Source: a virus. Taken from it: a DNA stretch of 28,176 nt. This document shows, piece after piece, positions 1 to 4,659 of the stretch (positions within the stretch are counted from its first letter, which is position 1; each line of letters begins with the position of its first letter). A model generated the notes under the pieces. It worked only from the letters and a program-made list of their open reading frames with translations. It had not been told where the DNA came from and did no database searches. A program made the translations under genes and the position numbers. The stretch spans positions 1 through 28,176 of IMG/VR virus record IMGVR_UViG_3300040806_000175. The stretch is one strand, 5' to 3'.

Positions 1-495
1 GATCGTAGAGTCTGCTTCGAGCTGTTGAACTTTGTCTTCACCAATACGGCGGATCAGGTTTATTCTGAACTCCACGGCATTGCCTGACAAGTGACGATTA
101 CACTTGACGCACTGGGCATGGATGTTCCATGTATTGAACCTTAAATGACCTGCGGCGCCACGAGACCTGTAGTGTCCAGCATCCATGGTTCCGCCTAGCT
201 TCTGCTGTGGTAAGTTGCCACAACTGATACAAGGCTTATCACGGTCTCTGAACCGTACCCACGCATTGACGGCTTTCTGTGCCAGCTTCACCCAGTCAGA
301 TTTAGTACGCATCTTGGCGAGCTGTTCTTTGGTGTCTTGACGTACGCTTTTACGTACCACTTCCTGACCTTCTTCAGATTTAGCGAAGGCGATGAGATGC
401 TCCATAGAACAAAATGCCCGCAGACCACCACGGATGGCAGTCTCGGCAGGCACTTTCTTCTTGCAGTAACTACATTTGCGATTCTTGGCTTGCAT
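1..495 (-). CDS. ninG: NinG/Rap-family recombination protein (3' end cut by window edge)
   Basis: 165 residues are visible and the frame is still open at base 1, so the C-terminus is missing. An N-terminal CxxC pair (CSYC) followed by FCS forms a putative zinc knuckle. Next come a Lys/Gln-rich helical stretch, the segment FRDRDKPCISCG, then MDAGHYRSRGA, LRFNTWNIHAQC, CNRHLSGNAVEF and a final IGEDKVQQLE. This order is the signature of lambda NinG (Rap), a structure-specific endonuclease acting at Holliday junctions and D-loops during phage recombination. That role is family knowledge. The ATG at 495 lies 26 bases inside the 3' end of the methyltransferase gene, so the two are probably translationally coupled. 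The gene closes a recombination module that begins with the annealing protein at 4592. A plain HNH nuclease is a less likely reading. Confidence 0.93.
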   Translation of the reverse strand, partial: MQAKNRKCSYCKKKVPAETAIRGGLRAFCSMEHLIAFAKSEEGQEVVRKSVRQDTKEQLAKMRTKSDWVKLAQKAVNAWVRFRDRDKPCISCGNLPQQKLGGTMDAGHYRSRGAAGHLRFNTWNIHAQCVKCNRHLSGNAVEFRINLIRRIGEDKVQQLEADSTI

Positions 496-1345
496 AATCC
501 ATATACGCCTTTATGACTTCCGCTGCGACTTGCGGGACGATAGCGTTACCCGCTCCCCGCAGTAAGCCCACTCGATTGGGAACCCCATTAGCCAAAGGGA
601 AAAGCGTGGGTTCAATCGGTATTGGTCTTTGTTTTCCATCTCTGCATTCAATAGTCTGGCAGCCCCACCAAGGGTTGTGCCTTGACTCGGATGATTGGCT
701 GCTGCTCCTTCTCCCCGTACTTGCGGATTGTCCTGAGTTGATGGAGTTGGGTACGGAACAAGACTTGCTGCCGTCGCTAGAGGATTGCCACCATTCACTC
801 CTCTCGGATTGTCTGGATTCTTGCTTGCTCCGCCCGTCGATGCTGTTGGAGTGGGATACGAAGAACAATCGTTCTCTTTTGTGCGGGGCGCCGACGCTGC
901 AAGCTGGCAATACGACCATTGCTGTGGCGTAACCTTCTTTTTCCAAGTCAGTTTGTAGATCGTCGAACCATCCTGTCCTAATTGCTGAGCTAACTTGTTC
1001 TCCAAATATGACTGAAGGCTGGCACTTGGCGACAAGCTCTGTGAAGACTGGTGCAAGGTGTCGTTCGTCTGACTTGCCTTTGTTGTTTCCTGCGACTGAG
1101 AATGGTTGGCATGGCGGACTTCCTGTCCAAACAGGTCTAGCTGAATCCCATCCTGCCAATTCGAGTGCGTAACTCCATCCACCAATTCCTGCGAAGAAGT
1201 GACACTGAGTGAATCCTTTAAGGTCGTTTGCTTCGACTTCAGTGATTGATCTGTCATCAACTTCTCCATCAGGAATTAGTCCTTCTTTGATGAGTTCTCT
1301 TAGCCATTCTGACGCGAACGGATCAAACTCGTTGTAATAGTTCAT
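470..1345 (-). CDS. Phage DNA (cytosine-5) methyltransferase
   Basis: 291 residues. It would transfer a methyl group from S-adenosylmethionine to C5 of cytosine in a specific site, most likely to protect phage DNA from host restriction. Visible motifs: I, FAGIGG (51-56), the SAM site; IV, GSPPCQPFS with catalytic Cys79; VI, EQV (116-118), where most of the family has ENV; VIII, HKRERLFF (155-162); X, GNAIVPQVA (266-274). Residues about 165-225, the target-recognition region, are Ser/Gln-rich and look poorly ordered. This is the stretch where the nested frame carries its own motifs. The N-terminus (NEFDPFASEWLRELI...LIPDGEVD) is typical of phage-borne members. The start overlaps the preceding stop as ATGA. 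No restriction enzyme is nearby, so it appears to be an orphan. The recognition site cannot be read from sequence. Confidence 0.93.
   Translation of the reverse strand: MNYYNEFDPFASEWLRELIKEGLIPDGEVDDRSITEVEANDLKGFTQCHFFAGIGGWSYALELAGWDSARPVWTGSPPCQPFSVAGNNKGKSDERHLAPVFTELVAKCQPSVIFGEQVSSAIRTGWFDDLQTDLEKEGYATAMVVLPACSVGAPHKRERLFFVSHSNSIDGRSKQESRQSERSEWWQSSSDGSKSCSVPNSINSGQSASTGRRSSSQSSESRHNPWWGCQTIECRDGKQRPIPIEPTLFPLANGVPNRVGLLRGAGNAIVPQVAAEVIKAYMDYASQESQM
511..1257 (-). CDS. Nested alternate-frame protein inside the methyltransferase gene
   Basis: A 248-codon frame on the same strand as the methyltransferase, shifted by +1 and lying wholly inside it. The ATG at 1257 has GGAG six bases upstream; an upstream in-frame ATG at 1269 is weakly placed. 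The product has an ordered, protein-like motif series: LFGQEVRHAN, SPSASLQSYLENKL, GSTIYKLTWKKKVTP, CQLAASAPRT, two YPTP segments, and a C-terminus with LNPRFSLWLMGFPIEW followed by a Ser/Arg/Lys-rich tail. From memory, similar hypothetical proteins (SASLQ..., LTWK, TPTA, NP...RWLMG.P.EW) occur in other phages and prophages, again beside this methyltransferase type. Their function is unknown to me. The reservation is that alternate frames of a conserved gene can resemble each other without being translated. Expression is inferred, not shown. Confidence 0.6.
   Translation of the reverse strand: MTDQSLKSKQTTLKDSLSVTSSQELVDGVTHSNWQDGIQLDLFGQEVRHANHSQSQETTKASQTNDTLHQSSQSLSPSASLQSYLENKLAQQLGQDGSTIYKLTWKKKVTPQQWSYCQLAASAPRTKENDCSSYPTPTASTGGASKNPDNPRGVNGGNPLATAASLVPYPTPSTQDNPQVRGEGAAANHPSQGTTLGGAARLLNAEMENKDQYRLNPRFSLWLMGFPIEWAYCGERVTLSSRKSQRKS
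1264..1267 (-). promoter_or_regulatory. Shine-Dalgarno GGAG for the nested frame
   Basis: GGAG on the minus strand, followed by the six-base spacer AAGTTG and the ATG at 1257. Its spacing is close to ideal and it lies inside methyltransferase coding sequence. It decides in favour of the start at 1257 over 1269 for the nested protein. Confidence 0.5.
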
Positions 1346-2248: not shown

Positions 2249-2546
2249 TTCGACCTCTCTCTTCTGGTAGTGTTACGTGGATGCCGAGCTTGTCTCGTAA
2301 AGCGTCGATAAAGACATCCATTACTTCGTTGAATTCAGCTGTTGTCAGCTGTGTTGTGCTACGTTTTTCTGGGTACATAGCCTGCATGATTGGCTTAAAC
2401 ATGCGGTCTTTTACCAATGCCTCTGTTGGCGGTATTTCGACCTTGATGTTGCGCATATCGAAGTCCATGAATGCCAGCTCGTGAGCGACTTCACGGAACA
2501 CGACATGACCCCAGTCATTTTGGTTTGCCGTTCTCAGTTTTCCCAT
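2238..2546 (-). CDS. Hypothetical protein of the recombination operon
   Basis: 102 residues, soluble. Visible stretches are WGHVVFREVAHELAFMDFDM at the N-terminus, MYPEKRSTTQLTTAEFNEVMDVFIDAL in the middle and GIHVTLPEE near the C-terminus. The middle pattern (MYP..RST..LT..EF..V.D....L) resembles small proteins from phage recombination or nin-type regions, but I cannot name the family. The ATG start at 2546 overlaps the preceding gene by 32 bases. Position between the XRE regulator and NinG suggests an accessory recombination role; this is inference. Confidence 0.75.
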   Translation of the reverse strand: MGKLRTANQNDWGHVVFREVAHELAFMDFDMRNIKVEIPPTEALVKDRMFKPIMQAMYPEKRSTTQLTTAEFNEVMDVFIDALRDKLGIHVTLPEERGRNDY

Positions 2547-2679
2547 TCATCTCATCCTGTAGTTGTTTCAGTGCAGCTTCGCCACGTTTCTTCTTGATGG
2601 CGTCTTTTCTCGCGTTCCACCACCCATGACCGTGACGCTTTACTTGCTCTTTCCAGTATCGGGCTTCACAAGCAAGCAT
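2515..2679 (-). CDS. Small CEAR-motif phage protein
   Basis: 54 residues from the ATG at 2679, which has AGGG just upstream. The same frame can start at a TTG at 2700, giving 61 residues, and the choice is uncertain. The sequence has CEARYW at the N-terminus, a basic tryptophan-containing middle (HGHGWWNARKD), then KKKRGEAALKQLQDEM. The order CEAR(Y/W)...KKRG...L...M recurs in small phage proteins of unknown function. The product is highly basic and predicted helical, so nucleic-acid contact is possible. Function not established. Confidence 0.65.
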   Translation of the reverse strand: MLACEARYWKEQVKRHGHGWWNARKDAIKKKRGEAALKQLQDEMNGKTENGKPK

Positions 2680-2692
2680 GTGACCCTGCACG

Positions 2693-3052
2693 TCATTCAA
2701 GTTCTTTAATTAAGTTTTCCACCAGTTTGCTGTGAGCTACCAGCTCGGTATAACGTGAGTCGTTACACCTATGGTCGATAGCCTCTAGCACTTGTTGCAT
2801 GTTCTTCTTGTAGAACGAGCTTACTGGTGCGTTAGATAGGTTCAGAAATTCCTCGACAGATATGCCAAAGAACTCGGCGATCTTCTCAAGACGCTCGTCA
2901 TTCATGCGCTTGGTATTCTGCATGTTGTGAGCGTGTTGTCTCGATACGCCAAGATGCTTGGCAACGTGAGAAAGCGGCGCGCCAAACATATGGCACGCAA
3001 CCTTCAACGCCTGACCTGCGTGAGCTTCTGATTCAGGCTTCACAAGGATCAT
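2693..3052 (-). CDS. XRE/Cro-type transcriptional regulator
   Basis: 119 residues. A helix-turn-helix of the XRE family occupies about residues 27-46 (LSHVAKHLGVSRQHAHNMQN), followed by the usual second pair of helices (NDERLEKIAEFFGISVEEFL). The C-terminal 45 residues are helical and charged and probably dimerise. It overlaps the SSB-like gene (stop at 3052, start at 3052). It is the best candidate to bind the inverted repeat around the operon promoter at 4614-4659, which would make the operon self-regulated; that link is inference. No protease or cleavage site of a CI/LexA type is visible. Confidence 0.85.
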   Translation of the reverse strand: MILVKPESEAHAGQALKVACHMFGAPLSHVAKHLGVSRQHAHNMQNTKRMNDERLEKIAEFFGISVEEFLNLSNAPVSSFYKKNMQQVLEAIDHRCNDSRYTELVAHSKLVENLIKELE

Positions 3053-3285
3053 TAGAACGGCACATCCTGCTCAGGCGCAGAACTTGTAGCTTGTGGTTGA
3101 AGCTGGTCGTTCTTAGGCGTGATAGATAAAGACATGAACTTGCCTGACTTACCGTCCTTAACCCATGCAGATAGCCAGAACTCCTGACCATCGACGTTGA
3201 TAGAACCCTTGTACTCAGGGTGACGATCGGTTTCTTTGCGATCGTTCTTAAAAAGGACTCCGCGATTAGTATTATCGTATTCCAT
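3052..3285 (-). CDS. Small SSB-like protein with acidic-hydrophobic tip
   Basis: 77 residues. The N-terminal two thirds (GVLFKN, HPEYKGSINVDGQEFWLSAW, GKFMSLSITPK) alternate strand-forming residues as in a compact beta barrel. A Gln/Ala/Ser-rich linker follows, and the last six residues are EQDVPF. Bacterial SSB proteins end in a similar tip (DDDIPF) that recruits partner enzymes. The product therefore looks like a minimal single-strand-binding or replication accessory protein. This fits its place beside an annealing protein. Two small-protein families share the first part, so the assignment is moderate. Confidence 0.72.
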   Translation of the reverse strand: MEYDNTNRGVLFKNDRKETDRHPEYKGSINVDGQEFWLSAWVKDGKSGKFMSLSITPKNDQLQPQATSSAPEQDVPF

Positions 3286-3962
3286 TAGATTGCTCCGTTA
3301 GACATGAAAAGATATGCAGTCATTGCAGCGCCGATAAGAGCGCCAGTGATTACGCCAGTGACTACGTCTGACTTAGTAAGTGATTTCTGATCAAAATCAA
3401 AATTGATCACTGGAATCTCACCAGTAGCTTTAGCCTGATCAACAGCTAAATCCATGAGCTTTTTCTTATGCTCCGTGCTACGGCTCTCGTATACCTTGCC
3501 GGCAACGATATTGAAGTACTTAGGATTAGCAATGCTGTACAGTCGATTGATTTCATCGATGCTGGGCGACTTAGACTTCTTGATCGCAGCAAGAAGAGCA
3601 TCTCTATTCTTAGTTACGTATTGGTTAATTTTCTGTGAAGAACCAGAGAAAGTGCCGTTACTGAACCAGAAGTAATAGCGCTGATATGTAGAAAGCCCTA
3701 CGTCGTAGTTATCAAGTATGGTTTTCTTATTTATCTTCTTGCCAGATGCGGCTAGATAAAATGCAGTTATCGATTTAGCTGTCTTGTAGCTAACGCCTTT
3801 ATAGAACTTGTCTAACGGCTGTTGCTTAGCCTCTTCTTTACGCCTCATCATCTCAGCCCATATCTGACGCTTTTCTTCCTGTGACAGGTGATGCATGTGC
3901 ATCTGTGTTTGGCGTGAACCGCCGTTAACAACAGCTTTTGATGTTGTATGACCTTTACTCAT
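3285..3962 (-). CDS. Unknown protein with C-terminal membrane anchor
   Basis: 225 residues. The His/Met-rich N-terminus (MHMHHLSQEEKRQIW) leads into a charged helix (about 27-50), then a middle domain with AKSITAFYLAASGKK and GLSTYQRYYFWFSNGTFSG that could contain a DNA-binding turn. The last 25 residues hold one clear membrane segment (VVTGVITGALIGAAMTAYLF), so the protein is probably a tail-anchored inner-membrane protein with its bulk in the cytoplasm. I do not recognise it. It is 12 bases downstream of the annealing protein gene and directly upstream of the SSB-like gene. A membrane-tethered protein in the middle of a recombination operon is unusual. Confidence 0.8.
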   Translation of the reverse strand: MSKGHTTSKAVVNGGSRQTQMHMHHLSQEEKRQIWAEMMRRKEEAKQQPLDKFYKGVSYKTAKSITAFYLAASGKKINKKTILDNYDVGLSTYQRYYFWFSNGTFSGSSQKINQYVTKNRDALLAAIKKSKSPSIDEINRLYSIANPKYFNIVAGKVYESRSTEHKKKLMDLAVDQAKATGEIPVINFDFDQKSLTKSDVVTGVITGALIGAAMTAYLFMSNGAI

Positions 3963-3974
3963 CTTCGTGTCCTC

Positions 3975-4592
3975 TTAGAGTGTGTTTTTACGCAACGTAT
4001 CAAGAATTTCCTTGATAGATGCCTTTTGCTTAGACGAAAACTCAGACCAGACAGCCGACATCATTGGCTCGTCTTCTTTGAGTTCATCACCTAATTCTTT
4101 CAACGCTAATGCATCCTCTTCCTCAAGAGCATTCAAGAACGCTGTTACATAGAGCTGTTTCTGCTCTTTGTTGATTCGTTTGGCAGGTTTAGCAGGTTCT
4201 GCTTCTGGCTCTCCAGTCAGCTCAACACCGCCGTAGATAGAGATACCTAGACCGAACATCGCCATACACTTAACCAAACAACGCATGCGAGTGGTATTGA
4301 TGGCAAATGCATCAGGGTTAGCGATAGGTTTGTTACGGTAATCCATAACAGGCAGCCACATGGTACGCATAGCCATCTGGTCGTTCTCTTGGATCGTTAG
4401 TACGCACTCGACCATCATTGTGCCGTCTTCGTACTTAGTCTCAGAGAATGAGTAGCTGTTGTTAGGGTAATAAGTAGACAAAGTCGAATAGGCGAATGCC
4501 CACGACAAATAATCTAGGTTGCCTTTGCGCTCGATGTGCTTAGAAACGTCGACTTTAGACAGGGTCGACCAGACCTGTTGATGTAATGACAT
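3975..4592 (-). CDS. SAK3-type single-strand annealing protein (DUF1071 family)
   Basis: 205 residues. It matches the DUF1071/SAK3 family of phage annealing proteins, which coat single-stranded DNA and pair complementary strands in phage recombination. Diagnostic stretches are WSTLSKVDVSKHIERKGNLD at 8-27, YLSWAFAY at 28-35, WLPVMDYRNKPI at 79-90, and DAFAINTTRMRCLVKCMAMF running into GLGISIYGG (94-122). A Glu/Pro/Lys-rich linker follows, then a helical C-terminal domain. It is the first gene of the operon: the promoter lies just upstream, and GAGG precedes the ATG by six to seven bases. NinG at the far end and the SSB-like protein nearby complete a recombination set. No partner exonuclease is visible in the window. 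Confidence 0.88.
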   Translation of the reverse strand: MSLHQQVWSTLSKVDVSKHIERKGNLDYLSWAFAYSTLSTYYPNNSYSFSETKYEDGTMMVECVLTIQENDQMAMRTMWLPVMDYRNKPIANPDAFAINTTRMRCLVKCMAMFGLGISIYGGVELTGEPEAEPAKPAKRINKEQKQLYVTAFLNALEEEDALALKELGDELKEDEPMMSAVWSEFSSKQKASIKEILDTLRKNTL

Positions 4593-4613
4593 GTGTGACC
4601 TCGTTTACATTAA

Positions 4614-4659
4614 CTGAGTGCTAACAATAGTATAGGTAAATTCACATGTCAACACTCAG
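4614..4659. promoter_or_regulatory. Inverted repeat flanking the promoter, probable operator
   Basis: The arms are CTGAGTGCTAAC (4614-4625) and GTCAACACTCAG (4648-4659). They are reverse complements at 10 of 12 positions, with seven outer bases perfect and a 22-base spacer. One arm covers the -35 element and the other covers the -10/start-site region. A repressor bound here would block the promoter. Arm centres are about 34 bases apart, close to three helical turns. The XRE protein encoded at 2693-3052 is the obvious candidate ligand, but this is inferred from context only. Confidence 0.5.
4624..4652 (-). promoter_or_regulatory. Sigma70-like promoter of the recombination operon
   Basis: On the minus strand TTGACA (4652-4647), a perfect -35 match, is followed after 17 bases by TATTGT (4629-4624), which matches four of six positions of the -10 consensus. 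Transcription would begin near 4617, leaving about 25 bases before the SAK3 start codon. It stands immediately downstream of a terminator, as expected for an independent transcription unit. Confidence 0.65.

Follow-up and report, generated by a model that had tools for sequence, protein, structure and literature searches.

An 876-bp phage gene that very probably encodes both subunits of a C5-cytosine DNA methyltransferase in overlapping frames

Introduction

Can one stretch of phage DNA encode two proteins along most of its length and, if so, what does the second one do? This question is raised by a locus in the 28,176-nucleotide viral sequence analysed here (the window; IMG/VR record IMGVR_UViG_3300040806_000175), in which a sequence-only reading had described a second protein nested in another frame of a methyltransferase gene. 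Both overlapping frames were found on the minus strand as described, the nested one in the +1 frame (Table 1). Based on homology, comparative openness and substitution patterns, we consider it very probable that this 876-bp gene encodes both subunits of a heterodimeric orphan C5-cytosine DNA methyltransferase, with the nested beta subunit giving motif IX and probably the target recognition domain (TRD).

Results and Discussion

Locus organization

The two frames share about 85% of the length of the alpha gene. The segment LWLMGFPIEW of the nested frame, noted earlier as a shifted reading of a methyltransferase segment, is indeed the +1 reading of PLANGVPNRVGLL, and the accompanying idea that conserved parts of both proteins lie on shared bases is supported. 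The neighbouring genes scanned within the 28-kb record include a NinG nuclease, an HTH regulator, a Sak annealing protein and structural genes (SU10-type capsid, portal); no restriction endonuclease was recognised among them, and several small ORFs had no match. A plus-strand ORF at 513-932 (139 aa) is antisense to the linker and C-terminal part of alpha.

Table 1. Features of the overlapping methyltransferase locus in the window.
Feature	Position	Strand	Details and evidence
Alpha subunit, C5-cytosine DNA methyltransferase catalytic subunit	470-1345	-	291 aa, 876 bp; motifs I, IV, VI, VIII, X
Putative beta subunit	511-1257	-	248 aa from second ATG; +1 frame of alpha
Beta-frame ORF including first ATG at 1269	511-1269	-	252 aa
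Shine-Dalgarno-like GGAG	1264-1267	-	6 nt upstream of beta ATG (1255-1257); sequence
Alpha motif I HFFAGIGG, SAM binding	1178-1201	-	F51, G53 invariant in 80 relatives
Alpha motif IV PPCQPFS, catalytic Cys79	1097-1117	-	C79, Q80 invariant; phmmer alignment to M.HhaI
Alpha motif VI FGEQV (ENV variant)	992-1006	-	G115, E116, Q117 invariant
Alpha motif VIII KRERLFF	860-880	-	R157, R159 invariant
Alpha Ser-rich linker in TRD place; same bases as beta PTP region	671-844	-	AF2, substitution counts
Beta YPTP segment 1 (WPTP-type motif)	847-858	-	Columns 138, 140, 141 nearly invariant in 100 betas
Beta YPTP segment 2	742-753	-	Column 173 nearly invariant in 100 betas
Beta motif IX RLNPRFSLWLMGFPIEW; bases shared with alpha segment preceding motif X	568-618	-	Conserved columns
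Alpha motif X RGAGNAIVPQVA, overlapping beta C-terminal tail	524-559	-	G266, N267 invariant; AF2 helix

The alpha frame

Alpha belongs to the C5-cytosine DNA methyltransferases and has a large domain of the Rossmann type. In profile searches it matches phrog_363 at 280 bits and PF00145 at 78 bits, the latter over residues 74-172 only, and phmmer matches it to M.HhaI. Its AF2 model has a large domain with pLDDT mostly above 85 and a helix at 271-290 with pLDDT of about 94; Foldseek places it with M.HhaI and M.HaeIII (E 2e-8 to 6e-8, about 170-195 columns). Confidence is low in two stretches, with pLDDT of about 44-57 at residues 180-225 and under 50 for most of 246-266.

Neither motif IX nor an ordered TRD was found in the alpha chain by sequence, AF2 or substitution counts. 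The methyltransferase had been credited with all its catalytic motifs, which is incorrect for motif IX, and its Ser-rich part, taken for an abnormal target recognition region, is rather a nearly unconstrained linker occupying the place of the TRD. Across relatives, a motif IX-like segment was recovered in at most four of 187 alphas, as against 171-176 of the 187 betas. Alpha also keeps a short conserved segment, CRDGK.RP.EP, modelled as a hairpin at 229-243; this might contribute to recognition, by analogy with the M.EcoHK31I scheme that puts the TRD in alpha.

The beta frame

Beta matches phrog_1008 (105.6 bits, E 6.6e-30; residues 10-237 on profile positions 5-281 of 329). Within its motif IX, P221, W226 and W234 are invariant and L219, N220, L227, M228, G229 and P231 nearly so among 100 betas. 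Four sets of matches indicate that beta corresponds to the C-terminal half of a C5-cytosine methyltransferase minus motif X: its own match to phrog_1008; the single-chain relative L252, whose segment KRRLNPRFVEWMMGLPDGWVT...GNGVVP was aligned by phmmer with M.HhaI 271-308, that is, motifs IX-X; the single-chain relative L239, which spans PF00145 positions 1-314 in one chain; and gp76 of mycobacteriophage Severus, a +1-frame product matching phrog_1008 at 211 bits and positions 429-489 of phrog_116, a single-chain methyltransferase family.

Searches of beta against Pfam and NCBIfam gave no match, and a PDB profile search gave nothing useful. Modelled by itself, beta reaches a pLDDT of 60 and a pTM of 0.28 in AF2, and Foldseek finds nothing. 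Because of the poor model and the lack of structural and profile matches, the TRD assignment is based on position, elimination and homology to the C-terminal half; beta, through its WPTP segments, probably supplies target recognition.

Proposed mechanism

With motif IX in beta and none in alpha, beta looks like the half of the enzyme that alpha lacks. Alpha, translated in frame 0, would provide the large domain for catalysis, with SAM binding, the Cys nucleophile and motif VIII, and a C-terminal motif X helix joined to that domain by an unstructured linker. Beta would be translated independently from the one transcript, starting in the +1 frame at an internal site 88 nt downstream, and would supply motif IX and probably target recognition. 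It would dock on alpha at the position held by the small domain of a single-chain enzyme, and the assembled subunits would form an active enzyme able to methylate phage DNA at specific sequences. We infer from the sequences that alpha and beta form a complex, that methylation activity would require beta, making both subunits obligate, and that beta would set specificity. Orphan phage methyltransferases protect phage DNA against host restriction, and by analogy the enzyme is probably used to shield the phage's DNA in this way.

Architectures among relatives

Four architectures were distinguished. In the first, represented by the window, alpha carries motifs I-VIII and X, and a fully nested beta carries the WPTP segments and motif IX. 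The second, of the Severus type, has motifs I-VIII in frame 0 and the PTP region with motifs IX and X in the +1 frame; Severus gp77 (motifs I-VIII) has matches to phrog_363 and to phrog_116 at 205-375, and the +1 frame of such loci is annotated as a separate methylase gene. The third holds motifs I-VIII, a linker, IX and X in frame 0, with LPTP segments readable in the +1 frame (L237, L238, L239, L252); that frame is more open than expected by chance in L238 and L237, but not in L239 and L252. In the fourth, the Cornucopia type, everything including the PTP region is in a single chain. Since motif IX lies in the alpha frame in L237-L239 and L252, beta is not always its carrier.

The order of motifs along the DNA is identical in all architectures, so splits and fusions could arise by indels that exchange frames. 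In seven loci (L049, L051, L054, L069-L071, L114), motif IX or X is in the other frame, as single indels predict, reflecting either sequencing error or natural variation. A further locus (L072; IMGVR_UViG_3300021437_000026, alpha at 2501-4636) contains an in-frame intein in motif IV at the catalytic Cys, with Pfam matches to Hint_2 and LAGLIDADG_3 and a family-matching beta-frame ORF downstream of the intein.

Probable translation start of the nested frame

A GGAG had been reported six bases before an ATG of the nested frame. This is confirmed, but the ATG concerned is the second one (M5, 1255-1257), which aligns with the starts of the near relatives L006 and L012; beta is thus probably 248 aa long. 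A start codon near this position recurs among relatives, often with a Shine-Dalgarno sequence. Selection at one of the two usual beta start sites is demonstrated by codon choice: the alpha Asp codon that makes the ATG is GAT in 88% of cases, compared with 45% at comparable Asp codons in other parts of alpha (p ~3e-19, uncorrected for relatedness). The window uses the other site, where GAT is only weakly favoured (58% vs 47%; p 0.03, likewise uncorrected).

These features bear on programmed ribosomal frameshifting, in which ribosomes starting at alpha would slip to the +1 frame after motif VIII, and maybe back for motif X, leaving beta as the transframe part of one product. Such a scheme would account for why the motifs in the DNA (I-VIII, WPTP, IX, X) follow the order of a single-chain enzyme, and for single loci in which one indel puts IX in the alpha frame or X in the beta frame. 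However, a complete enzyme would need two opposite shifts, and beta has its own recurrent start region, a Shine-Dalgarno-like sequence and the codon bias creating its ATG. Moreover, if the shift came after motif VIII, there would be no need for the +1 frame to be open from just past the start of alpha, as it is. On these grounds we regard frameshifting as very unlikely.

Occurrence of the pair

Similar proteins had been said to lie beside this methyltransferase type in other phages, and the database searches bear out their presence there. With beta as the tblastn query, 189 phage GenBank records matched. Loci were sampled from viruses with the window's alpha (63 loci) and with the alpha of phage K1H (80 more); beta was present in all 80 of the latter. 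Conversely, in all 80 loci returned from bacterial genomes on the basis of beta, alpha overlaps beta in the same frame relation; these loci represent Proteobacteria, Verrucomicrobia, Acidobacteria, Planctomycetes and further groups.

The earlier suggestion of a partner, inhibitor or anti-restriction protein survives in its first part, given that beta carries the motif IX missing from alpha; the other two roles are not supported. Anti-restriction proteins are common in phages, and the absence of a Pfam or NCBIfam match to beta would be compatible with a real protein of other function (methyltransferase inhibitor, anti-restriction protein or regulator) whose overlap is fortuitous. We nevertheless judge this highly improbable: beyond the motif IX that alpha lacks, relatives of beta constitute the C-terminal half of single-chain methyltransferases, and alpha and beta co-occur in all intact pairs examined.

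Openness of the +1 frame

How far the composition of alpha could keep the second frame open was assessed by shuffling synonymous codons within alpha, which preserves its protein and codon usage, and scoring the length of the +1 run. An equally long run was obtained in two of 20,000 shuffled alphas of the window (0/2,000 in a first run) and, for most relatives, in 0-15 of 2,000. The mean run in shuffled alphas was about 110 codons. Openness of the +1 frame is, in part, compositional. The earlier estimate of chance survival, about 6 in a million, ignored alpha codon content and is too strong for the window sequence alone.

Far stronger than the shuffles, and the strongest evidence against chance, is comparative openness. 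Stops in the +1 frame were scored between motif IV and a point just short of motif X in 109 unique alpha-selected loci with alpha intact. The +1 frame was stop-free in 108 of them; the +2 frame had stops in all 109. An intact methyltransferase with a broken nested frame, named beforehand as the pattern that would speak against a real nested protein, occurs in the sole exception, L064, which has a stop early in the +1 frame (5' part), the remainder being intact. The claim that the nested protein is real is upheld.

Selection on the two frames

Differences between related pairs were classed as altering both proteins (NN), alpha only (NS), beta only (SN) or neither (SS), with transitions and transversions counted separately. 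Kinship was handled by using each sequence once, in place of a full phylogenetic model, and 69 ordinary gene pairs from the flanks, read with an imaginary +1 frame, served as controls.

Three zones were resolved. Alpha dominates across motifs I-VIII, with an alpha NN/SN of 0.24-0.25 and an NS/SN of 0.36-0.37, compared with about 0.3 in controls. Dominance is reversed over the linker, where beta is more constrained than alpha: NS/SN is 1.25-1.38, with bootstrap intervals above 1 and controls at about 0.3, and alpha NN/SN is near neutral at 0.79-0.88. The proposal that the second protein dictates the Ser-rich stretch is supported by this excess of alpha-only over beta-only changes. In the C-terminal IX/X segment both frames are constrained (beta NN/NS 0.40-0.48; alpha NN/SN 0.35-0.42).

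Constraint on the first part of beta (about 100 residues) is weak at most, as only transversions differ from controls (NN/NS 0.66 vs 0.99; transitions 0.67 vs 0.63). Because the same controls reach 0.63 for transitions without any overlap, raw NN/NS across motifs I-VIII is weakened as evidence that beta is constrained there. We also tried to detect dual constraint in the IX segment from the entropy of recoded sequences, but dropped this test: entropy in a third-frame control fell equally, indicating that relatedness confounds the measure.

We give almost no credence to the view that the +1 frame holds no gene and owes its openness to alpha amino-acid and codon composition, for although shuffled alphas hold long runs and non-overlapping controls give part of the transition signal, the frame is conserved across the loci, linker NS/SN exceeds 1, transversion NN/NS is below controls, motif IX is recognisable, and the Severus-type +1 frame is a separately annotated methylase gene.

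Comparison with known systems

Two-subunit C5-cytosine DNA methyltransferases are already known, as a rarely noticed kind; what is new here is how nearly complete the overlap is, how widely it occurs, the division of constraint as measured, and the absence from Pfam and NCBIfam. The small subunit of M.EcoHK31I is read in an alternative frame within the gene of the large subunit, a feature that the window appears to share. According to the motif scheme reproduced in PMC3404938, this two-polypeptide enzyme (YGGCCR) divides its motifs between a large subunit, with I-VIII and X, and a small subunit, with IX (Lee et al. 1995), the same division as in the window. The scheme places its TRD in the large subunit, whereas alpha of the window has a nearly unconstrained linker there and recognition is probably a part of beta. 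M.EcoHK31I also differs in being part of a restriction-modification system; no endonuclease partner was recognised among the scanned genes of the window. In the two-polypeptide M.AquI (CYCGRG), motif IX is in the second subunit, as in the window, but so is motif X (PMC3404938), which in the window lies in alpha (GNAIVP). The AquI split is approached more closely by Severus-type mycobacteriophage loci (L264) than by the window.

Among phages, the window pair matches both phrog_363 and phrog_1008, the families of the 'putative C-specific methylase' and 'putative Mte8-like protein' of Kagunavirus K1G, K1H and K1ind1-3. Both ORFs are annotated, with the same overlap, in K1H and fTaEco03. The family labels, however, read only 'DNA methyltransferase', and the records assign the second frame no subunit role. 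Single-chain phage enzymes (phrog_116; L239, L252; Cornucopia gp70) share the order of motifs I-VIII, a PTP-containing or linker region, IX and X; they differ in having all motifs in one frame, some retaining a PTP-containing +1 frame. M.BatI is treated as a single-chain enzyme (PMC8936443). A literature search that lacked most subscription journals found no paper describing the phage pair as a split enzyme.

A second protein out of frame within a phage methylase gene is also known from ShiLan, where a hidden HNH endonuclease is read in this way (PMC11855218). That endonuclease is an inserted mobile element, whereas beta of the window would be the enzyme's own second half. Translation of some of the 'hidden' HNH endonucleases that lie out of frame in phage methylases (PMC11855218) could be explained by a methylase beta frame. 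In L059 (2577-4001), beta extends beyond motif IX into an HNH endonuclease-like region, as judged by phrog_1271 and other HNH families with Pfam HNH below cut-off, and alpha is open over 525 aa.

Significance

WPTP segments number from 0 to 5 per beta in the sample. Beta is conceivably an exchangeable specificity subunit with a variable number of such segments, through which phages alter or multiply methylated sites while the alpha linker tolerates the changes; we hold this reading tentatively and consider it doubtful. If it is true, evolvability of recognition is bought by the tolerance of the overlapping catalytic subunit in that region.

The arrangement also affects annotation. In Escherichia phage NTEC3 (L265, OK539620.1), beta alone is annotated, as 'methyltransferase', and the catalytic alpha frame is left unannotated. 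As gene callers can retain one frame, sometimes the non-catalytic one, the active enzyme may be mis-assigned in some phages, and assays of alpha by itself could falsely score the enzyme as inactive.

Overlapping gene pairs of this kind recur in phages and prophages from many phyla of bacteria, and actinophages show other ways of splitting the enzyme. With about 85% of the gene double-coding and both products apparently halves of one enzyme, any point mutation there can hit both halves. The locus thereby offers a tractable natural system for the study of overlapping genes, combining three adjacent zones of differing frame dominance, single-frame relatives and a simple assay.
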